From NCBI RefSeq assembly GCF_007744075.1, contig NZ_CP036266.1, positions 4,387,748-4,451,747 of the forward strand: a DNA stretch of 64,000 nt, in the 5' to 3' direction. Shown here piece by piece: positions 10,027 through 26,587 of this stretch; within the stretch, counting starts at the first letter, position 1; each line of letters begins with the position of its first letter. The DNA comes from Gimesia chilikensis (GTDB taxonomy: Bacteria > Planctomycetota > Planctomycetia > Planctomycetales > Planctomycetaceae). Under the pieces are notes generated by a model that was given only the letters and a program-made list of their open reading frames with translations, did not search any database and had not been told where the DNA came from. The position numbers and the translations under genes were made by a program.

Positions 10027-10757
10027 ACACGTTAGAGTTCCGCAGCGGTCGGGGAGTTCCCGAATTTTTATTTTTTTTTACTGCCCGGCAGTGATCAATC
10101 TTCAGCTTGGTAGTTGGGGGACGATCCGTACAATCGGTGGATTGTTTTTAGAAAGTATGCAGGATGTTTTTCTACCGTTACCGGCGGTTAGCGCATTGCC
10201 GCTCATTTATTCGAAGGTGTTTTCAAGTAGGTTCTGATTTTGTGGAAGGGCGTGGGGAGGTCAAGAGGATGTTGCGAAATCCTGCTGCTGAATCTGCTCT
10301 GATGTTCCCTGAGTTGTTGTTGAGATGTACTTCAAATGCTCTGAGTGTGCTGCGAAATGCTTTGAAAATGTACGAGACATGTGGCACTGGTTCTGAGTGT
10401 TCTGGTGAAAACCTTCGAAAATCGACGCCGATTCAGGTGCAGTTGACTCACTGGTGGAACAGGTTCCTGTGCACGCATCGTCCGCCTCGCGCGCGAAGCA
10501 GAATTTCACAAAATACGGATCGGGAACTGCGATTCAAGTTCAATTTATTCAGTGAGGTTCACCAGAGTGCACCGGTGTAAAATACGAAGTAGTCAACATG
10601 CTGCTGTTTTGGGGAGAGGCCCCGATCCGAAATGATGATTCTCAAATATGAATTTTGTATAAACGTGGGAGTCGCTTCCTTGTCCCGACAGAACCGATCC
10701 CGACAATTGAGGTCTGAATTTCATCCTTCGACTGAACCTGAAAAACGAGACCTGACT
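10027..10757. other. 730-bp gap without a supported gene
   Basis: An open frame of 138 codons at 10164-10580 has no initiation signal, an arginine- and serine-rich translation and no family resemblance; it is not called. Bases 10261-10400 are rich in TG/GA words on the plus strand. No RNA gene or repeat was recognised. The end of the gap must hold the promoter of the nuclease gene. Confidence 0.5.
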
Positions 10758-11750
10758 GTGAAACGATTTGCGCTACTATCTGTTTTTGTACTGTTCCTGT
10801 TCGTAACAGTTCGACCTGCCCAGGCCTGGAACTATGCGGGGCATCGGATCATCGCTGCGATCGCCTGGAATCAGTTGACGCCGGAACGGCGGACGGAACT
10901 GGTGCAGTTGCTCAAACAGCATCCCCGCTTCGAGCAGGATTTTCAGTCGCGGATGCCACAGATCATCAAGGATGCGACGCCGGAAATCCAGGCTCGCTGG
11001 CTGTTCATGCGGGCAGCGACCTGGCCGGATATTGCCCGGAGTTTCAAGGATGCGGACCGCGAGAAATATCATCATGGGACCTGGCATTACATCAACCAGC
11101 CGATCTATCTGGATGACGCTTCAAAAAACGCATTGAGTACGCAGCTCTCGGCGAACGTGGCGACGTCGATCAAAGCGGGAGACGATGTGCTGGGGTTTAA
11201 TATTATTCAGGCCCTGGAATATTGTGTGGCGCAACTGAAAGACCCGCGTGTGAGTCAGGCGGATAAAGCCGTCTATTTCTGCTGGGTGATGCACCTGGTG
11301 GGTGACAGTCATCAGCCGCTGCATTCTTCGGCCCTGTTCAGCCGACGGATGTTTCCAGAGGGAGACCGGGGAGGCAATGATATTCGGATTGCAAAATCGA
11401 ATCTGCATTCCCAGTGGGACGGCCTGCTGGGAAACAGCTTCAAGGATTCGGAGATTGTCAGCCAGGCGGTGGGGATCGAACGGGACCCCGCGAATAAGCG
11501 ACTCGGCGAGAGCGCTGCCGGGGATTTGAATTATGTGACCTGGATCAATGAAAGCCACGAACTGGCGCGGGAGAAAGGATACAGCGTGGAAATACTGGAA
11601 GCAGCCCGCGTGAGTGAAGCTGAGAGTGGGAAGTTTCAGAAACTGTCATCGCTGCCTCAGAGTTATTATCGGCAGGCAGGTTCGATTGCGGTCAAGCGGG
11701 CGGCCCAGGCGGGCTGGCGACTGGCGGCGGTGCTGGAGGGTGTGAAGTAA
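10758..11750 (+). CDS. Exported S1/P1-family zinc nuclease
   Basis: This is a single-strand-specific nuclease/3'-nucleotidase acting outside the cytoplasm with three zinc ions. Start GTG 10758 is chosen because it yields a clean signal peptide (KRFALLSVFVLFLFV...AQA) whose cleavage exposes Trp24 in WNYAGHR. In this family the mature N-terminal Trp and the His five residues later are zinc ligands. Further ligands are seen in HHGTWHY, HLVGDSHQPLH and NLHSQWDG, with GGND between. The longer frame from 10632 adds an implausible leader. At 330 residues it is near the family norm. It probably scavenges phosphate or nucleotides. Confidence 0.93.
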   Translation: MKRFALLSVFVLFLFVTVRPAQAWNYAGHRIIAAIAWNQLTPERRTELVQLLKQHPRFEQDFQSRMPQIIKDATPEIQARWLFMRAATWPDIARSFKDADREKYHHGTWHYINQPIYLDDASKNALSTQLSANVATSIKAGDDVLGFNIIQALEYCVAQLKDPRVSQADKAVYFCWVMHLVGDSHQPLHSSALFSRRMFPEGDRGGNDIRIAKSNLHSQWDGLLGNSFKDSEIVSQAVGIERDPANKRLGESAAGDLNYVTWINESHELAREKGYSVEILEAARVSEAESGKFQKLSSLPQSYYRQAGSIAVKRAAQAGWRLAAVLEGVK

Positions 11751-12364: not shown

Positions 12365-12733
12365 TTAACGGAATGCTCTCAAAAATGGCAGAAAGAAGAA
12401 AACCAGCGACAGGAAAGATATCATCAGGAGCAGGTTAAGGCCTATCAAAACCAGGAGGAGCGTGCGACGTTTCGGATAGGGACCATCTGGTATTTCTTTG
12501 GCATCAAGATCTGTCAGGCACCCACAATTGCGACAGCGATAGCCGCCCTGTTTCCACTGTTGGATGGTTTTAGAAGCGGGATGTTGAAAGGGGATCAATG
12601 GTGTGCCGCAGGAAGGACAGCATTTCCCCTGGGCTTGTTTGACCTTGTACAAAAGATAAGCAATCAAGGGGGAGAGCAATATCAGCATTATCAACATCAT
12701 CACGAGGATGGAAGTTACTTCCCTTAGGAGCAT
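12365..12733 (-). CDS. Zinc-ribbon membrane protein (tandem paralogue B)
   Basis: The 122-residue product has an N-terminal helix (about 9-29), a double C-x2-C zinc ribbon (CPSC ... CRNC with GC following) at about 38-72, and a second helix near the C-terminus. It shares FQ-x-P-x3-KT-x2-QW-x2-GGYRC with the next gene upstream, so the two arose by duplication. The function is unknown. Confidence 0.6.
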   Translation of the reverse strand: MLLREVTSILVMMLIMLILLSPLIAYLLYKVKQAQGKCCPSCGTPLIPFQHPASKTIQQWKQGGYRCRNCGCLTDLDAKEIPDGPYPKRRTLLLVLIGLNLLLMISFLSLVFFFLPFLRAFR

Positions 12734-12783: not shown

Positions 12784-13119
12784 TCAGTTACGCATCAGGA
12801 GCATCATGAGAGGAATACAGGTCAGCAACAGGGAGATCACGATACAGAATACAAACAGCCCCATCCCAAGCAGTAAGGTTCCCTGTTCGGGAAGTGTTCT
12901 GGCTGCAACCTGCCTGCCTTTAAGGTCTGTTTCACAACCACAGTTTGGGCAGCGATACCCGCCGACAAGCCACTGACGTCGGGTCTTATTGAAAGGAGAC
13001 TGAAAAACCGGCATCGGGCGGTGACAGGAAGGACAGTTAATACCGCGAGCATGGAGAAACAGGAATGCAAAGAAGAACAGAAAGGGGATGAGGGGCATCA
13101 ACGTTAACGTGAAATCCAT
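12784..13119 (-). CDS. Zinc-ribbon membrane protein (tandem paralogue A)
   Basis: The 111-residue product has the same order as its neighbour at 12365: N-terminal helix (LMPLIPFLFFFAFLFLHA), CPSC...CPNCGC zinc ribbon with WLVGGYRC between, then a C-terminal helix. AGGAG sits 7 bases before the ATG. It is 50 bp upstream of its paralogue, probably on one transcript. The ribbon lies between two helices, on one face of the membrane. Confidence 0.65.
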   Translation of the reverse strand: MDFTLTLMPLIPFLFFFAFLFLHARGINCPSCHRPMPVFQSPFNKTRRQWLVGGYRCPNCGCETDLKGRQVAARTLPEQGTLLLGMGLFVFCIVISLLLTCIPLMMLLMRN

Positions 13120-13291
13120 GGCTCATCTCCTGTGATTGTTCCCGTTTCCGTGTCAAATAGTACAGACTCTCTAGTGAATTATAACGGACAGGCGTTTGAA
13201 ATAGATCAGGGATTGTTGCTTTAAATGTTCATATTTCTAATTTTGGCAGCAGAATGGAATGATAATTACTTATCGACTTGTTGATTTTGCA

Positions 13292-15601
13292 TTATCCCAG
13301 ATTCATCTGCTGCAGAATGCGGACGGTATCCCGGGCCGCTCTGGTTGGTTTGAGGGCGGTGGCGGCGATGCCCGAGACGACGCGGGTGATGTTATGATCG
13401 ACCTGACCCGGCTGTCCCCAGACCGAACCTGGAGGCGAGGTCATGTAGACCGAGAAGGTATGATGGCCGGTACCCGGACGTTCGCCGATGATATGCAGCA
13501 GGGCACGGTTGCCATCCAGTCCGCCGAACAGTGTTTCCCCGATGCGATAGCCTGCCCGGACGCGACCGGACTGCACGAGGATGTTCTGTTCCGCGGGATG
13601 AAAGCCGGCCGTTTTGAGCTGCGAGCGGAGTTCTTTCAGGAATGGTTCGAGCTGGTCTTCGTCCATAATCGAAAGGGCGTTCAAGCCGTCGGAGATCACG
13701 ATCTGCACGTTATACTGCGCGTCGTACTGCTGACGCAGCTGTTTAATGGCAGCCTGCGAGGCGGGCGCGAGTGCTTCGCCGGTGGCGGGGTGCAGAATAT
13801 ATTCGCTACGACTGGTCGACTGGGTTGTGATGGGTACCGAGGCGGGGAGCGTGGCGATGAAAGCGGGAGTCAGTTCGGCCCAGATGCTCTGTTTGGCATC
13901 GTGGTAGATGCGGTCGATCTGCTGTTGAAGATCAGGAGACAGTGCAGATGGTTTCTCGCCATAACCTGTCGCGAGGAAAACGCCGCGCGAACGAACTTCT
14001 GCCAGCTGGCGTCGGCCTTCGTCGAGAATGCGTTCCTCAGGACGACTGTCTCCTTTCTTACGGCGGTACTGCAGATAGACCCAGGTCGGATCGCCGAAGT
14101 GTTTTGTCGGTTTTCCCTGCGCGTCGATCACGCCGAGCTGCTGGAAGAATGCCCACATGGCGTCGTTGACGCGGTAGCCGAACTTCTCGCGGATGCGGAC
14201 ATGGTCCTGAAAACCGGTCGTCAGATAGCCGAGCATCGGATCGATTTTTGTCGGGAGTGCCATCAGGTAGCCGGGGTTGGCGGGCATGATCTGTTCGAGA
14301 CACCAGTCGAGATCGTCGAGCGAGACATCCATGTGCAGGGTCGAGCAGACATCCAGGCCGATCATCAGACCGTGCAGTTTACCCATGACGATATCTTCCA
14401 GGCAGCAGCGGACGAGCTGTTCCCGGGTGCGGAAGACTTCGGGACCGATGAAGCCGGCGACGTCGTTCAAATGGACCCAGGGGGCGGCTGTCTGGCCTGC
14501 CTGCATTTGGGCAAGGGCAACTTCGCGGGTCAAGGCACGAGCGAAGCCATACTTCCGCGATTCGTGCAGGACCATGTCGAAGCCGTGACTGTGCCCGTTG
14601 GTGAAGTCGGCCCCCTGCCCCGTTTCGAAATAGAGCGCATACTTGCCGGTACGGGAACGAGCGTAGTCGCGCATCTTTTTGAGATCGATATCAAACGTCT
14701 GGTTGGCGGCATCACATCCAGCGATACTCTGGAACCAGAGGGCCGTACTTTCAGGCGAACGGCGTTCGACTTCGGCCTGGACGTCGATATGCGACAGCAC
14801 GCAGTGCGGAAGGACATCTGCAATACCGAAGGTCTCGAGGATCTCGCGAAGCTGCAATTCGACCGCCTGCACCGATTCGGGTTCGCTGGAAACCGGATTG
14901 GTGCCGAGAACGACGTCGCCGACCGCATACGACCAGCCATCCAGGACCTGCCAGAAGATGTCGTCCAGATTGTCGGTCGGCGAGTTGGGTTGAATGCGGG
15001 CACCGAGATAGCCTTTCGCACCGAGCTGGCTGCCGGGGAGCGGATTGAAGACTTTCGTGCCGACGGTAATCAGCTCGTCGTTAGACATGAGTTTAACGAC
15101 GCAGCCGATGACATCGCTGGAGAGTGTGCCGGCAATCTGCTTGATCGTCGCTTCACTGCCTTCGAGCAGCAGTTGTTTCAATTCACCGAGCGTCAGGTTG
15201 ACGGGGCGCGAGTCGGCATCCGCCAGATTCTCGTTGATGTAGCGGTTCAGGTCATCTTCGTAGATGGGATGACGTTCCAGGTCGACAATCCGGGTGGCGG
15301 CGAGCAGCTGGCGGGCGTTGTGACGGGATTGGTCATCGACGGCGGCGACGCCGATGAACTGATCGCCTTCCTTGAATTCATTGGCGGCTCCGAGCAGCTG
15401 ACGATAGAACTTGGGATCGTGTTTACCTTTGACCCGCTGGATGTAGTCAAACAGCGTTTCACCTGCATTGACGTCAGGGATGGTGACGCCTGCTGCCGGG
15501 CTTTCAGCTGCGGGGAGGCGCCGAGCCTGGGACAGAGAAACGGTGAGCGCGAAGGGAGCTCCCAGCATAGCCTGTACGAAATCACGACGGTTCCACTGCA
15601 C
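13292..15601 (-). CDS. eutBC: Fused EutB-EutC ethanolamine ammonia-lyase with Tat signal
   Basis: This is the adenosylcobalamin-dependent lyase that converts ethanolamine to acetaldehyde and ammonia. The 769 residues comprise a twin-arginine leader (NRRDFVQ at 4-10, hydrophobic to about 24), a EutB heavy chain (about 40-510), a linker and a EutC light chain (about 590-769). Residues matching the known EutB substrate contacts are present: R202 and Q204 (ARIQP), N235 (GTNPV), E326 (YFETGQG) and D417 (GLDVCS). EutC landmarks are VQIVISDGLNA, GRVRAGYRIGE and IGERPGTG. GTG 15601 has AAAGGA 8 bases upstream. The two chains are normally separate cytosolic proteins; fusion plus an export signal is the oddity. 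It is last in the minus-strand operon. No eutA reactivase or microcompartment gene is seen. Confidence 0.9.
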   Translation of the reverse strand: MQWNRRDFVQAMLGAPFALTVSLSQARRLPAAESPAAGVTIPDVNAGETLFDYIQRVKGKHDPKFYRQLLGAANEFKEGDQFIGVAAVDDQSRHNARQLLAATRIVDLERHPIYEDDLNRYINENLADADSRPVNLTLGELKQLLLEGSEATIKQIAGTLSSDVIGCVVKLMSNDELITVGTKVFNPLPGSQLGAKGYLGARIQPNSPTDNLDDIFWQVLDGWSYAVGDVVLGTNPVSSEPESVQAVELQLREILETFGIADVLPHCVLSHIDVQAEVERRSPESTALWFQSIAGCDAANQTFDIDLKKMRDYARSRTGKYALYFETGQGADFTNGHSHGFDMVLHESRKYGFARALTREVALAQMQAGQTAAPWVHLNDVAGFIGPEVFRTREQLVRCCLEDIVMGKLHGLMIGLDVCSTLHMDVSLDDLDWCLEQIMPANPGYLMALPTKIDPMLGYLTTGFQDHVRIREKFGYRVNDAMWAFFQQLGVIDAQGKPTKHFGDPTWVYLQYRRKKGDSRPEERILDEGRRQLAEVRSRGVFLATGYGEKPSALSPDLQQQIDRIYHDAKQSIWAELTPAFIATLPASVPITTQSTSRSEYILHPATGEALAPASQAAIKQLRQQYDAQYNVQIVISDGLNALSIMDEDQLEPFLKELRSQLKTAGFHPAEQNILVQSGRVRAGYRIGETLFGGLDGNRALLHIIGERPGTGHHTFSVYMTSPPGSVWGQPGQVDHNITRVVSGIAATALKPTRAARDTVRILQQMNLG

Positions 15602-15712
15602 GGTAGTGTCCTTTCAAGTGAAGCCTGGAAGGGGGCTGACGGAGACTGCGCACTCTCGCTTTCATCGATGATACCACCGCTAAAAAACAATTATCAAGCG
15701 GGAATGGCGATC

Positions 15713-17131
15713 TCAAGCCAGAATGTCGTGCACCACGTGACCATGCACGTCCGTCAGACGGCGATCGATGCCGGCGGTGCGGAAGGTGAGGCGGGTGTGA
15801 TCGATCCCCAGCAGATGCAGGATAGTTGCGTGCAGGTCGTAGCAGTAGGTTTTGTTTTCGGCGGTCTGGTAAGCGAGATCGTCACTTTTCCCGTAACTGG
15901 TGCCCGCTTTGACGCCGGCACCGCCGAGCCAGGTGACGAAGGTCCCCCGGTTATGATCGCGGCCTTCGCTCCCCTGGGCAAAGGGGGTGCGTCCGAATTC
16001 GGTGGTCCAGATGACGAGGGTATCTTCCAGCAGGCCGCGGGCTTTGAGATCGCGAAACAGCGCGGCGATCGGCTGGTCGGCACTGCGGGCGATGGCGGGG
16101 AGTTCGGTTTTGATGTTCCCATGATTGTCCCAATTGTTGACGGCGCCTTGAGGACCACTCCAGACTTGAACAAAGCGGGTACCGCGTTCCAGCAGACGGC
16201 GAGCAAGCAGTGCCCGGCGGCCGAAATCTTCCGTTTCTTTCTGGTCCAGACCGTAGGCGGCGTGGGTCTCTTTGGTTTCACGGGAGAGATCGAAGGCTTC
16301 CGGGGCACTGAGCTGCATCTTTGCCGCGAGTTCCCCTGCTGCGATACGGGCTTCGAGTCGGGAGTCATCGGGACGCGTGGTCGCGTGTTGACGATTGAAC
16401 TGCTGCAGCAACGCGAAGGTCACTTTGTCAGCCTTCCCCTGTGCGAACTGGTATTGCGGATCGGCGAAGAGATCGGGAATGGGTGTTTTACTGGTCGCGT
16501 TAACCAGCGTGCCCTGATGTTTTGCGGGGAGGAACCCGCAGCTGAAGTTCCCCTTTTGATTGTAAGGCAGGCCGCGGGTATCGGGAAGGACGACGAACGT
16601 GGGCAGATTGTCGGCCAGATTTCCCAGTGCGTAGGAGATCCAGGCGCCCAGACAGGGAAAGCCCGGAAGCATGAAACCGGTATTCATCATGTAGCTGGCC
16701 GGGCCGTGCACGTTGGTTTTGGTTGTCATCGCCATCAGGAAGGCGAGGTCATCGACAATCTGTGCCTGATGGGGAAAGACCGAGCTGACCCACTGCCCGC
16801 ATTCGCCATGCTGCTTGAATTCAAAGGGGCTCTGCATCACAGCACCGACGGCTCCGGTGAAGCCTTCCGGTTTCTCTTTGGGGCCCAGTTTCTGGCCATG
16901 CAGACGTTTGAGCTCTGGCTTATAGTCGAACGTATCCATCGGGCTGGCGCCGCCGTTCATGAAGAGTTGAACAACGCGTTTCGCTTTCGCACGGTGATGC
17001 AGGCCGCCATTCAAGTCTGGCGCGGAGGCTGCCTGCAGATGCTGTCCCAGCCACCAGGTGAGCGCAGCGGCTCCGAAGCTCCCGCCCGAGCGGGTCAGCA
17101 GTTCGCGTCTGGAGAGAGGTAATTCCAGCAT
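15713..17131 (-). CDS. DUF1501 protein with Tat signal
   Basis: The 472-residue exported protein belongs to the alkaline-phosphatase/sulfatase-like fold group annotated as DUF1501. The leader contains SRRELLTRSGGSFG (Tat). Landmarks include NGGASPMDTFDYKP, MMNTGF, WDNHGNIK, TEFGRTPFAQG followed by GRDHN, and a C-terminal DLHATILHLLGID. DUF1501 proteins nearly always accompany DUF1549/DUF1553 proteins in planctomycetes; their reaction is not established. The gene starts 3 bp after the preceding stop, which implies translational coupling. The next gene, EutBC, follows after 111 bp. Confidence 0.9.
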   Translation of the reverse strand: MLELPLSRRELLTRSGGSFGAAALTWWLGQHLQAASAPDLNGGLHHRAKAKRVVQLFMNGGASPMDTFDYKPELKRLHGQKLGPKEKPEGFTGAVGAVMQSPFEFKQHGECGQWVSSVFPHQAQIVDDLAFLMAMTTKTNVHGPASYMMNTGFMLPGFPCLGAWISYALGNLADNLPTFVVLPDTRGLPYNQKGNFSCGFLPAKHQGTLVNATSKTPIPDLFADPQYQFAQGKADKVTFALLQQFNRQHATTRPDDSRLEARIAAGELAAKMQLSAPEAFDLSRETKETHAAYGLDQKETEDFGRRALLARRLLERGTRFVQVWSGPQGAVNNWDNHGNIKTELPAIARSADQPIAALFRDLKARGLLEDTLVIWTTEFGRTPFAQGSEGRDHNRGTFVTWLGGAGVKAGTSYGKSDDLAYQTAENKTYCYDLHATILHLLGIDHTRLTFRTAGIDRRLTDVHGHVVHDILA

Positions 17132-17134
17132 GGT

Positions 17135-20095
17135 TCACTCCACAAAGAGAAATTCGTTACTGTTCAACATCAGTCGGGCGACGGACTCCAGTCCGTGCGA
17201 TTCCGCAAGCGCGGTTAACTGGCGTTGTTCGTCAGACGTGGGTTCACGCAACCAGGTCCAGAGTGCGATCTGCCTGACCTGGTCTGAAATCACAGGTTTT
17301 GTTTTACGGGCACGCTCGGCCAGTTTCCGGGCATGATGGAGGACGAAGCGATTATTCCATAAGACAAGCGACTGTAGCGGCGAAGCAGAAAAGCCACGCA
17401 CGGGTGAGAGCAGTCCCAGATCCGGGAAGTCGAGGGCATCCATCAACGGATCGGGAATGCCCCGCCAGACGACACGGTAGATGCTCCGCCGGTACGCACC
17501 GGGGCTGTCGAGATCAAACTGATCGTAGTGCAGCACGGGTGTCGCCTGGGGACCGGGAGTCTGGGTAAAGTTCTGTATCCCCGGGCCGCCCATGGTGAGG
17601 TCGAGAGTGCCATTGACGCGGAGGACGGCATCGCGATAACTGTCCGCATCGAGACGCTGCCGTGTCCAGCGGGCGAGGAGGCGATTCTCGGGATCGATCT
17701 TTGACAATTCGGAACGAAATGCAGAGGACTGCTGATAGGTCTGGCTGTTGCAGATCAGTCGATGCAGGTGCTTCAGAGAGCCGTTATGATCACGAAGTTC
17801 GCAGGCGAGCCAGTCGAGCAGTTCGGGATGAGAGGGAGTGCCCCCCATGCGACCAAAATCGTTGGGAGTGTCACAGAGACCTTGCCCGAAATGATAGTGC
17901 CAGACACGGTTGGCGATACTCCGCCAGGTTAAGGGATTCTGTGGATCGGTGAGCCAGTCCGCGAGAGCTGCACGCCGGGCGGATTCGGCATGCGGGTCGG
18001 GCAGATCGAAACGGGCTGGCAGAGAGGGGAGAACAGAGATCGCGCCCGGCGCGACAACGCCACGGGGCTTTTCCAGATTGCCCCGGATCAGCAGGCGGAT
18101 TTCGCGGGGCTGAGTGAATTTTACCATGCCCCGTTCGTTAGCCGCTTCGGCGGCAGCAGCGTAGACTTTCGCCTGCTGTGGTAGTTGAGCCAGTTCCTGT
18201 TCGGCCCGGTACTTCAGGATGACGCCAGCTAACGCGGTCTGTTGTGCGGGTGTACGGTCTTTCGCGGGAATTTTGAGTGCGGCTGCTGCAGCTTCCGGGA
18301 GGGCAATCACATTCAACTGATCGGCAGCGGTGGCACTCAGTTTGAAACGGCCGATGAGATGCGCACCGCCATGCACCTGTTTGAGTGAGACAACCAGTCG
18401 GGTGCCTGGTTTCAGAGTCAGAGGAGACTGCAACTCGAAGACAGCGTAATGTCCCACACCTACCTTGGGATAGATACCCCAGGCGGTTTTGGGATTGCCA
18501 TCCAAAGCGTGCTGTATCGTCCAGCCAGCCTGATCGAAGTCGGCGGTGGCGCGACTGATGGCGAGCTTCTGTCCTGCTTGAGCATCCGGCGGGAACACGC
18601 GGATTTCAACTTCGTTGAGATGCAGATTTCCGTTATGAGCGCGGCCTGGTCCCTGATGGGGAAGCGAGGCATCGGTCAGCAGATCCAGACGTACTGCGGT
18701 GATCGTTTTCAGTTCTGGCTGAACGGTCACCAGAATGGATTCCTGTTCGGGCGCCGGGCCGCTGGCCAGAATCGAATTATCCGGCTGTCGCTTCAGGTCG
18801 GCTCCTCCGTTGGAAACGAAGGTCTCTGGCGGAAGAACCTGCCATTGGGGTTCGGGGCCACGCTGTTGCTCCCACGCGGTGACCAGTTGCGTATATTCCG
18901 GTTGCAACAGGATCGAAGCATTGTTTTCAAGGGCAGCCTGCCGGAGTGCTTCCCATTTTATTCGTTGGGCCGCGACTGCGGAGTCTGCATCAAAGCTGAC
19001 GTCCCCCTTCCCAATACCGGCGAAGACGGCCTGCAGGGCGAAGTAATCAGACTGAGTAATGGGGTCGAACTTGTGCGTATGACAGCGGGCACAGTTGGCG
19101 GTCGTACTGACGAACGCTCCCATGGTCTGCGTGACCAGGTCGTCACGGTCGAGATATTCGAACGATTTGGGCGCGGTGGCCGCGGCACTCTGATCGTAGG
19201 GGCCGGCTCCCAGAAAGCCGAGCGCGACGGTGAGCTCAGACTGTTCGGGATAAAAATAGTCAGCGGCCAATTGTTCCCTGATGAAACGGGTCCAGGAGAT
19301 GTCCTGATTCAAGCGGTCGATGACATAATCGCGGAACCGCCAGGCATGGGGGCGAAAGACATCGTGTTCGAAGCCGTGCGAATCGGCGAAGTGGATCGTA
19401 TCCAGCCAGTGGCGGGCCCAGCGTTCTCCGTAGCGGGGGGAGGCGAGCAGTTGATCGACGAGTCGAGCCCAGGCATCCGGACGCTGGTCCTTGATAAAGG
19501 CTTCCAGTTCTACGGGAGTGGGATGCAGGCCATGGAGATCGTACATCAACCTGCGAAGCAGTGTGCGTTGATCGGCCTGGGGAGCGGGTTTGAGCTGCTG
19601 CTCACTCAGTCGCTCCTGAATAAAGGCATCGATGGGATTTAAATGTCCTGCGCCGGGGACCGCGGGACGGATCAGCGGTTTGAGAGACCACCAGTCGAGT
19701 GCCTGGCTCGTGTCGGCCTGTGGCTGACTGATGCGCGGATCGGGGGCTCCCTGCCCGACCCATTTTGTGAGAATCGCGATCTGCTGATCGGACAGTTTTA
19801 CATCCGGCATTTTCAAATCGGGGTCGGTGTGTCGAATCGCTTTGATCAGCAGACTCTGTTCCGGTTGGCCTGGAACGATGGCGGCCCCGCGCGATCCGCC
19901 TGTCTTCCAGCCACTCTGCCAGTCGAGGGTTAGCTCCCCTTCCATCACACCCGCTGAGTGGGAATGACAGTCGTAGCAGTGTGCTTTCAGAATGGGTTCG
20001 ACAGACTCGCGGAAAAACTGATCGCCGTCAGCCGGGAGTGATTGATGAGTATAGAGCAGGATCAACAGTAGACTCGTGAGTCGAATTCCATTCAT
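17135..20095 (-). CDS. Planctomycete cytochrome-type DUF1549/DUF1553 protein
   Basis: The 986-residue exported protein has a signal peptide, then a PSCyt1-type module with haem motif CYDCH near residue 40 and a MPDVKLSDQQIAILTKWV end. The DUF1549 domain begins at about 145 (PIDAFIQERL, LLRRLMYDLHGL, YGERWARHWLDTIHFADS). A second CARCHTHK motif is near 335, followed by a middle beta-rich domain and a C-terminal DUF1553 (PLTWRSIANRVWHYHFG, FGRMGGTPSHPELLDWLA). A redox role is inferred from the CxxCH motifs. Its ATG overlaps the IclR stop (ATGA), and the DUF1501 gene follows 3 bp later. Confidence 0.92.
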   Translation of the reverse strand: MNGIRLTSLLLILLYTHQSLPADGDQFFRESVEPILKAHCYDCHSHSAGVMEGELTLDWQSGWKTGGSRGAAIVPGQPEQSLLIKAIRHTDPDLKMPDVKLSDQQIAILTKWVGQGAPDPRISQPQADTSQALDWWSLKPLIRPAVPGAGHLNPIDAFIQERLSEQQLKPAPQADQRTLLRRLMYDLHGLHPTPVELEAFIKDQRPDAWARLVDQLLASPRYGERWARHWLDTIHFADSHGFEHDVFRPHAWRFRDYVIDRLNQDISWTRFIREQLAADYFYPEQSELTVALGFLGAGPYDQSAAATAPKSFEYLDRDDLVTQTMGAFVSTTANCARCHTHKFDPITQSDYFALQAVFAGIGKGDVSFDADSAVAAQRIKWEALRQAALENNASILLQPEYTQLVTAWEQQRGPEPQWQVLPPETFVSNGGADLKRQPDNSILASGPAPEQESILVTVQPELKTITAVRLDLLTDASLPHQGPGRAHNGNLHLNEVEIRVFPPDAQAGQKLAISRATADFDQAGWTIQHALDGNPKTAWGIYPKVGVGHYAVFELQSPLTLKPGTRLVVSLKQVHGGAHLIGRFKLSATAADQLNVIALPEAAAAALKIPAKDRTPAQQTALAGVILKYRAEQELAQLPQQAKVYAAAAEAANERGMVKFTQPREIRLLIRGNLEKPRGVVAPGAISVLPSLPARFDLPDPHAESARRAALADWLTDPQNPLTWRSIANRVWHYHFGQGLCDTPNDFGRMGGTPSHPELLDWLACELRDHNGSLKHLHRLICNSQTYQQSSAFRSELSKIDPENRLLARWTRQRLDADSYRDAVLRVNGTLDLTMGGPGIQNFTQTPGPQATPVLHYDQFDLDSPGAYRRSIYRVVWRGIPDPLMDALDFPDLGLLSPVRGFSASPLQSLVLWNNRFVLHHARKLAERARKTKPVISDQVRQIALWTWLREPTSDEQRQLTALAESHGLESVARLMLNSNEFLFVE

Positions 20096-20856
20096 GGCTG
20101 CAGGCCTCCGCTGATCTGTGCGGCACTGTCGATAACTTGAGCTCCCATGCTGGCAAACATGCTTTTGGGCAGGCGTTTCGCTGGAGCCGAGACCCAGAGT
20201 ACGGCGATCAGCTTTCCTTCAGGACCGGTCACGGGAGCGGCGACACAGTGAATGCCTTCGTCTGCCTCTGCATGATCGGTGGCATAACCGCGGTTCAAGA
20301 CCTTCGTGCATTCGGTTTGTAAGGTCGCGGGTTTGGTCAGGGTGCGAGGGGTATCGGCGGTGAGCGGAATCCGGTTCAAAGTCGCTGTCCGCTCACGCGG
20401 CGACTGATTCGCCAGCAGAACTTTACCGGGGGCGTTATTATGCAGGGGAAAGCGGAGCCCGATATCGACGGCAATGCGGAGTGGATGCAGGCCGCTGACC
20501 TGTTCGATAATCACGCCTTCATCGCCGACCTGAATTCCCAGCTGAACGGTTTCCCGTGTGAGGTCGCGGAGCTCACGCATTAGCGGGAGGGCGACTTCCA
20601 CCAGGCTGACATCACCGGCTTGAGGCAAGCCCAGAGAAAGCAGACGGGGAGAGAGTCGGAACTTTTTGGTAAGCGGATCGCGTTCGAGATAGTTGCGGTC
20701 CGTCAGCGTGTGGGTAATGCGAAACACCGCGTTTTTATTCAGCGACAAGCGTGTTGCCAGCTCGCTGATCCCCAGCCCGTCGGGTTCCTGATTCAGCAGT
20801 TCCAGGATATCGAGTCCCCGTTCCAGGGCGGGAACACTCGTGGCAGCAGTACTCAT
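20092..20856 (-). CDS. IclR-family transcriptional regulator
   Basis: The 254-residue protein has an N-terminal winged helix-turn-helix (ALERGLDILELLN, LGISELATRLSLNKNAVFRI) and a C-terminal effector-binding domain (GLRFPLHNNAPGKVLLA, RGYATDHAEADEGIHCVAAPV). IclR proteins typically control catabolic operons in response to a small carbon compound. Being the first gene of the minus-strand operon, and overlapping the next by 4 bp, it probably controls its own transcript and hence the EutBC fusion. A perfect palindrome 69 bp upstream is a candidate operator. The ligand could be ethanolamine or a downstream product, but this is inference. Confidence 0.93.
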   Translation of the reverse strand: MSTAATSVPALERGLDILELLNQEPDGLGISELATRLSLNKNAVFRITHTLTDRNYLERDPLTKKFRLSPRLLSLGLPQAGDVSLVEVALPLMRELRDLTRETVQLGIQVGDEGVIIEQVSGLHPLRIAVDIGLRFPLHNNAPGKVLLANQSPRERTATLNRIPLTADTPRTLTKPATLQTECTKVLNRGYATDHAEADEGIHCVAAPVTGPEGKLIAVLWVSAPAKRLPKSMFASMGAQVIDSAAQISGGLQP

Positions 20857-23491: not shown

Positions 23492-26400
23492 CTAGTCGTC
23501 AGTAACAGGTTCTTCCCCTTCCTTGATTTTGGGAGCAAACCAGGGATAGATTGCCGGCACCACCATGGATGTCAACAGGGTAGAGGTAATCAGACCTCCA
23601 ATCACCACACTGGCCAGCGGACGCTGCATTTCGGCTCCGTCACTGGTCGAGAGCGCCATCGGCAGAAAGCCGAGGCTGGCCACCAGCGCCGTCATCAGAA
23701 CGGGACGCAATCGTGCCATCGCAGCCTGAAAGGTCGCATCCTGCATCGGAACCCGCTGTTTAAGCCGCAGGTTTTCAGCCGCAGAGACCCATACCAGACC
23801 GTTCAATACCGCCACACCAAACAGCGCGATGAACCCGACCCCGGCAGAGATACTGAAAGGCATCTCACGTAATGCGAGCGCGTAAATTCCGCCGGAAGCT
23901 GCCATGGGAACCGCGAGAAAGATTAACAGCGCCAGTCGAACAGAACGAAACGTCGTATGCAGCAACAGGAAAATCAGCATCAGGACGATGGGGGTAATGA
24001 TCACCAGACGCTTACTGGCTGACTGCAGGTTTTCAAAATCGCCTCCCCAGCGAATCTCGTAGCCATCGGGAAGTTGAACCTGCGTTTCCACAGCATGCTG
24101 GGCATTAGCGACGAAACTGGCCACGTCCACCCCTCTGACATTCGCCTGGATGAAGGTACGTCTGCGGTTAGATTCGTGTTCGACCGTGGGTGGAGTTTCT
24201 TCAAAAGTGATGTCTGCCAGCTCACGCAACGGAACCGGCTTTCCGGTGCCATCGGCGACAGGAATCTGTTCCAGCAGGCTCACCTGTTCCCGCCATTTTT
24301 GAGGAATACGGACGATAATCGGGAATCGGGCACGTCCTTCGAAGATCAAACCGATCGGATGACCTCCCAGTGAGGAGACAACGTCCATCACATCCCGGGC
24401 ATCCATGCCGTAACGTGCCAGCGCATCCCAGCGGGGCTGGATGCTGATCGTGGGCAGGCTGGACTGGATATCGGCTTTGACATCCACAGCGCCAGGAACT
24501 TTTTTCAGAACCCGTTCGATTTCCTTGCCTTTGCTGCTTAGCACCTCCAGCTCATCGCCATAGAGCAGAACCGCGACGTCAGCCTTAACACCTGCCACGA
24601 GTTCATCCACGCGCATTTCGATCGGCTGGGTAAATCCGAATGCTACGCCAGGCACTTGAGAATTCAGCGCATCCGACATTTCTTCGATCAGTTCATCGCG
24701 AGTTTTCGGTTCGGGCCAGTCCAGCGGAGACTTGAGAATCACCCAGACGTCGGTCTGGTGGACCCCCATCACATCGTTAGCGATTTCGGGACGTCCGGTT
24801 TTACAGAAGACTGTTTTGACTTCAGGGAATTTGACCAGTACCTTCTCGATCTGAGTCGACATTTCCACGGAGCCTTCAATGGTGGCACTGGGGAGGCGAA
24901 CGGCTTCGACCAGCAGGTCCCCTTCTTCGAGGCGAGGCATGAATTCCGCTCCCAGATTCCAGCCTACAGGCAGGCTGACCAGAAAGACCAGCAGTGCGAT
25001 CGCCACGGTGAGAATGGGGCGACGAATCGTCCAACTGACCATGGGACGATAGATCCATTTCACCCAGCGGATGAGCCAGATTTCTTTCTCGGACATTTTC
25101 TTCGGCAGAGCCAGTGAAGCCAGGGCTGGCATCAGAGTCAGCGAGAGCACCAGTGATCCCGCCAGGGCGAACAACACCGTCAGTGCCATGGGACGGAACA
25201 GTTTTCCTTCCGTTCCCTGCAGGGCGAGAATCGGCAGATAGACGACGGCAATGATCAGTTCACCAAACATGGTTGGTTTCCGCACTTCAATGGCGGCATC
25301 CCGAATGACTTCCCGGAAGGGCTTGCCTGACTGATTCATCGAGAGTCGGCGAATACAGTTTTCGACCATGATCACGGAACTGTCGACGATCAAACCAAAG
25401 TCGATCGCCCCCAGACTCATCAGGCTGGCAGTAATGCCTGTCGCCGCCATCAGGTTGGTTGCGAACAGCATCGATAGAGGAATCGCCAGTGCCACGATCA
25501 CACCGGCCCGGAAGCTCCCCAGCATGAAGAGCAGAACCACGATCACAAGGATGCCCCCCTCAATGAGGTTCGTGAGCACGGTTTTCAAAGTACGACTGAT
25601 CAGAGCAGATCGGTCGTAGGTAATTTCCAGAGTGACTCCTTTAGGCAGACTTTTCTCAATATCTTCCAGACGTGCCTTGGAGGCAGTAACGACCTCGCGC
25701 GAGTTCTCACCGATCAACATCATTACCAGCCCGGTCACCGCTTCTCCACGTCCATCCCGGGTAACAGCCCCCTGGCGGGTCATCGGAGCAATTTTGACTT
25801 CGGCAATATCGCGTACCAGAATCGGCGTGCTGTTGGGATCGTGCTTGACGACCAGGTTTTCAATATCTTTCTCATTTTTCAGCAGCGCCTGCCCCCGAAT
25901 GAATCGCTGTTCGTGATTGTGCACCACGTAACCGCCGCCGGCGATCATATTGTTATTTTCCAGCCGCTGAAAAAGCTGGGCCATGGAAATCCCATAGCTG
26001 TTCAATCGATCGGGATTGGGTTGGACTTCAAATGTCTTGTAGTACCCGCCGTGGGTGTTGATTTCGGTCACACCCTGCACTTCGCGCATACGGGGTGCGA
26101 TCTCCCATTCCAGCAGGGTGCGGAGCTGCATGGGCGTGTAATCTGCACCGCGGACTTCAAACTGCAGAATCTCGCCCAAAGCTGTTGTCAGCGGGCCCAG
26201 TAAGGGAGTGCCGTAACCTGGAGGAATATCGGCAGCCGCGATTGCGATGCGTTCAGTCACCAGTTGCCGGGCCCAGTAGATGTCGGTTCCTTCTTCGAAG
26301 ACAATGGTGACGACCGAGATGCCGAATTTGGATACACTGCGTACCTCTTCCACAGCGGGCAAGCCCCCCATGGCGATTTCGACCGGATAAGTCACATAGC

Positions 26401-26587
26401 GTTCGACTTCCACCGGCGACAGAAAACCGGCATCGGTGACGACCTGCACCTGCACGTTGGTCATGTCGGGAACAGCGTCGATGGGTAAGTGGATTGCGGA
26501 ATAGATCCCCCCGGCTGCCATCAGTAAGGTCAGCACGAGAATGATAAACCGGTTCTCCAGCGAAAATTCAATCAGGCGGGACAGCAT
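23492..26587 (-). CDS. HME-RND heavy-metal efflux permease (CzcA/CusA type)
   Basis: This inner-membrane proton-driven pump of the tripartite metal efflux class has 1031 residues, the normal length, with twelve predicted helices and two large periplasmic loops. The N-terminus (IEFSLENRFIILVLTLLMAA; LPIDAVPDMTNVQVQV) is diagnostic. The TM4 proton-relay motif reads DFGLIVDSSVIMVEN near residue 395, where the usual text is DFGxxVDGAV; both aspartates are kept. GAGGGAG precedes the ATG. It follows the membrane fusion gene by 61 bp. The metal cannot be decided from sequence. No outer-membrane factor is encoded in the window. Confidence 0.95.
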   Translation of the reverse strand: MLSRLIEFSLENRFIILVLTLLMAAGGIYSAIHLPIDAVPDMTNVQVQVVTDAGFLSPVEVERYVTYPVEIAMGGLPAVEEVRSVSKFGISVVTIVFEEGTDIYWARQLVTERIAIAAADIPPGYGTPLLGPLTTALGEILQFEVRGADYTPMQLRTLLEWEIAPRMREVQGVTEINTHGGYYKTFEVQPNPDRLNSYGISMAQLFQRLENNNMIAGGGYVVHNHEQRFIRGQALLKNEKDIENLVVKHDPNSTPILVRDIAEVKIAPMTRQGAVTRDGRGEAVTGLVMMLIGENSREVVTASKARLEDIEKSLPKGVTLEITYDRSALISRTLKTVLTNLIEGGILVIVVLLFMLGSFRAGVIVALAIPLSMLFATNLMAATGITASLMSLGAIDFGLIVDSSVIMVENCIRRLSMNQSGKPFREVIRDAAIEVRKPTMFGELIIAVVYLPILALQGTEGKLFRPMALTVLFALAGSLVLSLTLMPALASLALPKKMSEKEIWLIRWVKWIYRPMVSWTIRRPILTVAIALLVFLVSLPVGWNLGAEFMPRLEEGDLLVEAVRLPSATIEGSVEMSTQIEKVLVKFPEVKTVFCKTGRPEIANDVMGVHQTDVWVILKSPLDWPEPKTRDELIEEMSDALNSQVPGVAFGFTQPIEMRVDELVAGVKADVAVLLYGDELEVLSSKGKEIERVLKKVPGAVDVKADIQSSLPTISIQPRWDALARYGMDARDVMDVVSSLGGHPIGLIFEGRARFPIIVRIPQKWREQVSLLEQIPVADGTGKPVPLRELADITFEETPPTVEHESNRRRTFIQANVRGVDVASFVANAQHAVETQVQLPDGYEIRWGGDFENLQSASKRLVIITPIVLMLIFLLLHTTFRSVRLALLIFLAVPMAASGGIYALALREMPFSISAGVGFIALFGVAVLNGLVWVSAAENLRLKQRVPMQDATFQAAMARLRPVLMTALVASLGFLPMALSTSDGAEMQRPLASVVIGGLITSTLLTSMVVPAIYPWFAPKIKEGEEPVTDD

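Follow-up and report, generated by a model that had tools for sequence, protein, structure and literature searches.

A single-chain EutB-EutC protein with a predicted export leader in Gimesia chilikensis and its leader-bearing relatives

The window, the whole stretch of DNA analyzed here, comprises 64,000 nucleotides of Gimesia chilikensis contig NZ_CP036266.1 (positions 4,387,748 to 4,451,747) and carries a gene, eutBC, in which both subunits of ethanolamine ammonia-lyase (EAL), EutB and EutC, are joined in one chain behind a predicted export leader (Table 1). The gene is a single open frame of 769 codons. As claimed by the original prediction, made from the sequence alone, both domains lie in this one frame: the EutB domain is above both curated cut-offs (451.5 bits in Pfam, cut-off 25; 594.8 bits in NCBIfam, cut-off 554), the EutC domain passes that of Pfam (111.9 bits, cut-off 25.8), and both subunit folds of an EAL are present in the predicted structure. 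Comparison with six same-genus relatives yielded ratios of nonsynonymous to synonymous substitution (dN/dS) of ∼0.06 to 0.14 in the leader and in the mature part, rough values since some dS exceed 1.5 and only comparisons with finite dS were used; dN of the leader was up to 2.5 times that of the mature part in same-genus comparisons. The reading frame and its fusion are thus confirmed as not due to chance. A plus-strand frame of 1287 aa (13259-17122), antisense to eutBC and the adjoining DUF1501 gene, was judged a spurious shadow frame. The window gene is the sole EutB match in the 8.29 Mb genome.

Table 1. Coordinates of eutBC, its parts, and the adjoining cluster genes in the window
Feature	Position	Strand	Basis
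eutBC fusion gene, 769 aa, GTG start	13292..15601	-	Open reading frame, Pfam/NCBIfam matches, purifying selection
Ribosome-binding-like AAAGGA, ending 7 nt 5′ of GTG	15609..15614	-	Read by eye
Predicted export leader, residues 1-26, with a guessed cleavage site after SQA-26	15524..15601	-	Sequence, leader rule
Twin arginine, residues 5-6, in NRRDFVQ	15584..15589	-	Sequence, alignment
EutB domain, residues 67-500, including R202, Q204, N235, E326, F384, and D417	14102..15403	-	Pfam, alignment
Linking stretch (residues 501-557) between EutB and EutC, replacing the free EutC N terminus	13931..14101	-	Pfam boundaries, structure model
EutC domain, residues 558-766, including R680, V681, and E707	13304..13930	-	Pfam, alignment
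DUF1501 protein, itself with a twin-arginine leader (SRRELL); adjoins eutBC in most genus relatives	15713..17131	-	Pfam, locus comparison
PSCyt1/DUF1549/DUF1553 protein, same cluster	17135..20095	-	Pfam
First gene of the cluster, encoding an IclR-family regulator; top NCBIfam model BhcR, far under cut-off	20092..20856	-	Pfam, NCBIfam

Residues 1-10 of the product read MQWNRRDFVQ and are followed by the uncharged stretch AMLGAPFALTVSLSQA and then ARR. The motif NRRDFVQ with its uncharged h-region fits a leader of the twin-arginine translocation (Tat) type, as originally predicted, and TatC is encoded in the Gimesia genome (204 bits). R5 of the twin arginine is nearly invariant across a 35-row alignment, and residues 1-4 and 13-35 fall below a predicted local distance difference test score of 50 in the structure model. 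Here and below, leader classes were set by an automatic rule plus inspection by eye.

Window residues R202, Q204, N235, E326, F384, and D417 align with Escherichia coli EutB R160, Q162, N193, E287, F329, and D362, which we take to be substrate contacts; all of these but F384 had been matched to the known contacts in the original prediction. None of the six varies in any of the 94 leader-bearing or 57 canonical rows. In the EutC half, R680, V681, and E707 correspond to E. coli R206, V207, and E228, presumably cobalamin and substrate contacts, and each is found in 102/102 leader-bearing rows. The window protein therefore shares with the canonical two-subunit enzyme (E. coli, PDB 3abo and 5ysr) both subunit folds, the substrate residues, and EutC R206/E228, at an identity of 32% in EutB and 23% in EutC. 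It differs in being one chain rather than two, in its leader, and in an EutC half that scores below the equivalog cut-off. The fusion has no free EutC N terminus, whereas that of Salmonella EutC carries a microcompartment signal (PMC9426561).

A similarity scan over 84,980 species genomes gave 121 stretches, of which 96 were confirmed as relatives. The best 80 of these, 51 to 78% identical to the window protein, were kept, and every one has a leader before the EutB domain: 48 twin-arginine (RR), 4 RR with a lipobox, 5 arginine-lysine (RK), 10 RK with a lipobox, and 13 resembling signals of the general secretory (Sec) pathway. The complete fusion is visible in 76 loci; L073, L076, and L079 are cut at a contig edge, and L077 stops after ∼684 codons. 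The leaders are Tat-like in planctomycetes, acidobacteria, and rhizobia, Tat- or lipoprotein-like in Bacteroidota, and Sec-like on the same fusion in Geobacter, Desulfobacterales, and Riflebacteria. In Bacteroidota, the RK type may represent Sec or lipoprotein signals and not Tat. Relabelling by eye affected 20 rows, namely 13 fused proteins (including L024, with its weak hydrophobic part), 4 canonical rows, and 3 rows renamed cytosolic fusions. The first automatic rule left 14 rows with no anchor and classed L104 as Sec-like; that row was afterwards counted as leaderless. The kept loci include isolates of Echinicola, Algoriphagus, Jiulongibacter, Poritiphilus, Ensifer, Rhizobium, and Sinorhizobium; the others are mainly metagenome bins, whose names are in part doubtful (the quick tree described below places L011 and L013 among planctomycetes despite their Bacteroidetes titles).

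Among plasmid records, 149 of 72,556 match, and the first 25 listed, from Sinorhizobium, Ensifer, and Pararhizobium, cover 96 to 99% of the query at 53 to 55% identity. The Sinorhizobium meliloti protein, identical in strains ml56 (pSymA) and BL225C (pSINMEB01), starts with MSKRLFSRQRDGLTRRDLLLMAGATATLASYSHAAKSA, a clear Tat-type leader, and is annotated as plain EutB in the ml56 record.

Surveys of whole groups, which overlap with the similarity scan (for instance, L007 = L107 and L078 = L106), place these fusions beside canonical EutB. Of 14 control genomes, E. coli was the one that the EutB family profile matched. EutB occurs in 29 of 392 Planctomycetota genomes, as 12 canonical proteins and 17 low-scoring fusions, 13 of the latter with a leader; all nine genomes of the window's genus in this sample, the window's included, carry a leader-bearing fusion. 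In Bacteroidota, 13/395 genomes have EutB, 11 canonical and 2 fusions with a leader, one of them in the centre genome. The survey of the phylum of the Geobacter genome G406 gave 27 EutB matches in 26 of 297 genomes: 12 score as canonical, including three leaderless fusions (L154-L156), and 15 are low-scoring fusions, 14 of them with a leader. Within the order that includes the Ensifer genome G404, EutB occurs in 80 of 297 genomes, nearly all canonical by score (30 loci fetched); the low-scoring full-length matches are those of the centre genome and of G1338, the latter a leaderless fusion of another kind. The exported fusion is the only EutB in 19 of 19 genomes checked, and one surveyed genome, G881, has two fusions (L165, with a Sec-like leader, and L171, leaderless and very divergent). 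As a control, 59 canonical rows, including E. coli EutB and the misframed L175, have no hydrophobic stretch by the rule; in four further canonical rows (L180, L184, L186, and L187) the one such stretch precedes the single plausible ATG, and these were read by eye as leaderless.

Rows for phylogenetic analysis were thinned at 96% identity and L175 was dropped. In a quick tree of 142 rows, the 94 leader-bearing rows lie on one side of a branch with a Shimodaira-Hasegawa-like approximate likelihood ratio support of 99, far from canonical EutB (in this tree L169, counted as Sec, still shows label T, and the window gene L001 and L123, which is the L074 gene, are unlabelled). In a careful tree of 49 chosen rows, all leader-bearing rows together with leaderless L104 and L108 form a branch with 100/100 support. 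The stem between the leader-bearing family and canonical EutB measures ∼1.5 changes per column plus more. L104 and L108 fall outside all leader-bearing rows in the quick tree and are nested inside them in the careful tree; loss of the leader appears likelier than original absence for these two. We rejected a single leader origin as a settled reading, given the different positions of L104 and L108 in the two trees and the very long branches of L171 and L100/L103, which leave their placement unsure in both. Within the careful tree, Sec-type labels need at least three changes on well-supported branches: a rhizobial group and L160, both Tat-like, sit near the Sec-like Geobacter and Desulfobacterales, and the Sec-like Riflebacteria protein L025 sits inside a Tat-like group. 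That a leader is kept while its type switches therefore argues for selection on place, not route.

These data bear on whether the protein could be a plain cytosolic EAL whose leader is non-functional or inefficient, a reading that we regard as very unlikely. The presence of leaderless relatives (L104 and L108, nested among leader-bearing rows in the careful tree, and the distant L171) would suit it, as would the ethanolamine uptake proposed by the authors of a study on Pelobacter carbinolicus (PMC3543383) and the case of Acinetobacter baumannii, whose cytosolic EAL supports ethanolamine use without a metabolosome or EutA (PMC9426561). On the other hand, a leader is present in 80 of 80 kept loci in chemically distinct types and is under purifying selection, and the canonical controls are leaderless. 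The original prediction would have been countered by a leader not conserved in relatives; conservation held throughout the kept loci and broke down in 4 of the 17 planctomycete fusions (L100, L103, L104, and L108). We judge export of the leader-bearing fusions to be very likely.

A second alternative is that the protein is exported and is no longer an adenosylcobalamin (AdoCbl)-dependent ethanolamine lyase, acting instead on another amino alcohol or in capture or sensing of corrinoids or amines. The long branch to canonical EutB is in keeping with such a change, as are the altered EutC positions and E. coli EutB S295, which is Thr in 92/94 leader-bearing rows. So is the presence of corrinoid-type importer genes near a Geobacter fusion (L058). 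Downstream of that fusion lie a hydrophobic protein of 260 aa that matches no Pfam family, an ATP-binding cassette (ABC) ATPase, a Peripla_BP_2 protein, and a FecCD permease, with a corrinoid ABC ATPase and BtuC as the best NCBIfam models for the ATPase and the permease, all below curated cut-offs; upstream are a substrate-binding protein and a Gcw_chp protein. The same neighbour families recur at five to seven other Geobacter-like loci. However, a plain binder would have no need for the six invariant substrate residues or for EutC R206/E228, and P. carbinolicus, with fusions as the only EAL named in the part covered, is among the strains that split ethanolamine (PMC3543383). We regard this alternative as unlikely and AdoCbl-dependent EAL chemistry of the fusion as likely.

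P. carbinolicus provides the closest comparison. According to the covered part of the 2012 report (PMC3543383), its strains grow on ethanolamine and encode two EutBC fusions with no eutA and with a periplasmic substrate-binding protein and a multitransmembrane protein alongside; on the 3′ side of eutBC2 are a corrinoid-related ABC transporter, VWFA proteins, and an ATPase, as around the Geobacter L058 fusion. The gene order at L058 matches this published description, and on this basis the P. carbinolicus fusions may belong to the same sequence branch as the window protein. That part of the report does not mention export of the lyase or a leader. The EutBC fusion itself is thus already in print, and the original background statement that EutB and EutC are separate subunits was too strong. 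The A. baumannii enzyme resembles the present case in working with neither shell nor EutA and is membrane-associated in micrographs, whereas it is encoded by eutBC genes with no N-terminal signal predicted on EutC (PMC9426561). We found no report of an exported EAL in titles and abstracts of the open-licence papers listed by our searches, and the family is a real and widespread variant of a known enzyme, predicted to be exported and apparently undescribed.

If exported, the enzyme must acquire its cofactor either before or after crossing the membrane. Sec passes unfolded chains. Because of this, Sec-type relatives would bind any cobalamin after membrane crossing, and because they must fold after export, loading outside the cytoplasm would be the likelier common mode. 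Insertion of the cofactor before the protein leaves the cytoplasm, at least for members with Tat-type leaders, concerns this loading step and is compatible with export. It finds a precedent in the Tat-exported corrinoid reductive dehalogenases, cobamide enzymes outside the cytoplasm that differ from EAL in fold and chemistry (Fe-S reduction rather than an adenosyl-radical lyase reaction), and it would suit the Tat-type leaders in planctomycetes, acidobacteria, rhizobia, and part of Bacteroidota. Yet the Sec-type leaders of Geobacter, Desulfobacterales, and Riflebacteria indicate that pre-loading is no requirement of the fold. We consider it a rather doubtful alternative overall: pre-loading is possible for the Gimesia protein, and the original idea that Tat is used since the enzyme is pre-loaded does not stand as a general rule.

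We favor, at a probability of roughly 60%, the reading that the window gene encodes a single-chain EAL exported over the cytoplasmic membrane to act outside the cytoplasm. The leader would be removed after export or would tether the protein, and the joined EutB and EutC halves would bind AdoCbl at their interface. Ethanolamine outside the cytoplasm would be split into ammonia and acetaldehyde, both then entering the cell, and the fusion would keep the halves together where their ratio and concentration escape control. In the window's genus, the exported DUF1501 protein next to it might release the amino alcohol from an ester, which is a guess.

Several observations weigh against this reading. 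The NCBIfam EutC equivalog (NF003971) scores 82.9 bits, far under its cut-off of 230, and the EutC half is therefore divergent; three EutC positions that are invariant or nearly so in canonical proteins are changed in leader-bearing rows (R141 to E in 102/102, D211 to Y in 102, and N261 to G in 94). In EutB, 56 of 122 canonical-conserved columns (at least 95% identity in canonical rows) are less conserved in the leader-bearing rows, with the same residue kept at ≥95% in the other 66. The four leaderless planctomycete fusions and L171, from the phylum of the Geobacter genome, also count here. No EutA, TonB receptor, or aldehyde dehydrogenase was found among nine Pfam-scanned neighboring window genes, and no shared ethanolamine pathway emerged among 20 neighbor proteins scanned at loci outside Geobacter. 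The window contains no cobalamin riboswitch; with none in 20 relative loci at the gathering score either, we rejected a riboswitch as regulator of eutBC. Lastly, AdoCbl outside the cytoplasm has no established case in the literature covered.

Among the 150 of 589 candidates scored in the Gimesia genome, one matched RF00174, at 2.3 Mb from eutBC, and a scan for promoters and terminators gave no more signals than chance. No gene for the reactivase EutA was found in this genome, EutA being a common but not required partner of canonical EAL. We rejected lack of EutA as a marker for the exported branch, since full-length EutA occurs in 2 of 30 exported-fusion genomes (both Rhizobiaceae, the remaining matches being short and weak) and 2 of 10 canonical genomes. 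EutA status is thus non-discriminating, as 8 of the 10 canonical-EutB genomes also have no full-length copy.

The order iclR-psd1-duf1501-eutBC is kept in seven of nine same-genus regions (exceptions L002 and L005). L004 and L007 have a DUF1501/PSD1 pair on the other strand, with identities of 40 to 43% and ∼33%. The structure model of the DUF1501 protein, of low confidence, resembles the alkaline phosphatase superfamily. With 99 DUF1501 matches in the Gimesia genome, 97 of them above cut-off, and the gene order in only 7/9 regions, we do not regard the DUF1501 and DUF1549 neighbors as established dedicated partners of eutBC. Downstream of eutBC, the window also encodes two small proteins of membrane type that resemble each other, contain cysteine pairs, and belong to no Pfam family (12365-12733 and 12784-13119) and an S1/P1 nuclease (10632-11750); an AcrB-type transporter lies at 23492-26587. 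Elsewhere, the rhizobial fusions of L055, L066, L081, and L202 (L202:3600-8836) lie downstream of a large GH94-type gene annotated as a glycosyl transferase, with a glucoamylase-like gene in between in L066, L081, and L202 and a phosphoketolase further upstream in L202. In the related bins L011 (3642-5486), L012, and L013, the fusion follows a GPR1/FUN34/yaaH-family gene, a family which we take to function in acetate transport, and a Peripla_BP_6 binding protein; these neighbors would suit uptake of an acetate-like product.

Cysteines at residues 167, 399, 400, and 434 (window 14300-15103) are found in 80 to 92 of 94 leader-bearing rows and in none of 57 canonical rows, and other canonical EutB cysteines are lost in the leader-bearing family. 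Possible disulfides are ambiguous as independent evidence of a periplasmic place: C399 (91/94) and C434 (92/94) can each be lost without the other, and leaderless L104 and L108 have them too.

Two further kinds of leaderless fusion were seen. L154, L155, and L156 (∼705 aa; EutB part 654 to 660 bits) group with canonical EutB and are likely a separate fusion event. In L100, L103, and L204 (L204:2135-5840), which share the one-chain EutB and EutC with the window protein and differ in having no leader, the position of E. coli D362 is alanine (by eye for L204), and an EutA gene (229 bits) lies directly upstream of the L204 fusion. This lineage is likely a cytosolic EAL relative with an altered substrate.

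To our knowledge, AdoCbl radical enzymes are treated as cytoplasmic, since their cofactor is made and repaired there with ATP. Taken together, the data raise the prospect, to which we give slightly less than even odds, of a widespread family of such enzymes outside the cytoplasm that would take their cofactor from periplasmic cobamide after export and deaminate ethanolamine with neither a microcompartment nor an ATP-driven reactivase. With a conserved leader-bearing branch whose leader type was swapped several times, extracytoplasmic B12 radical chemistry becomes directly testable, and S. meliloti strains, with a Tat-leader copy on a megaplasmid (pSymA in ml56), offer a tractable host. Such an enzyme would open further questions on how acetaldehyde is handled with no shell and on periplasmic cobamide as a working cofactor pool.
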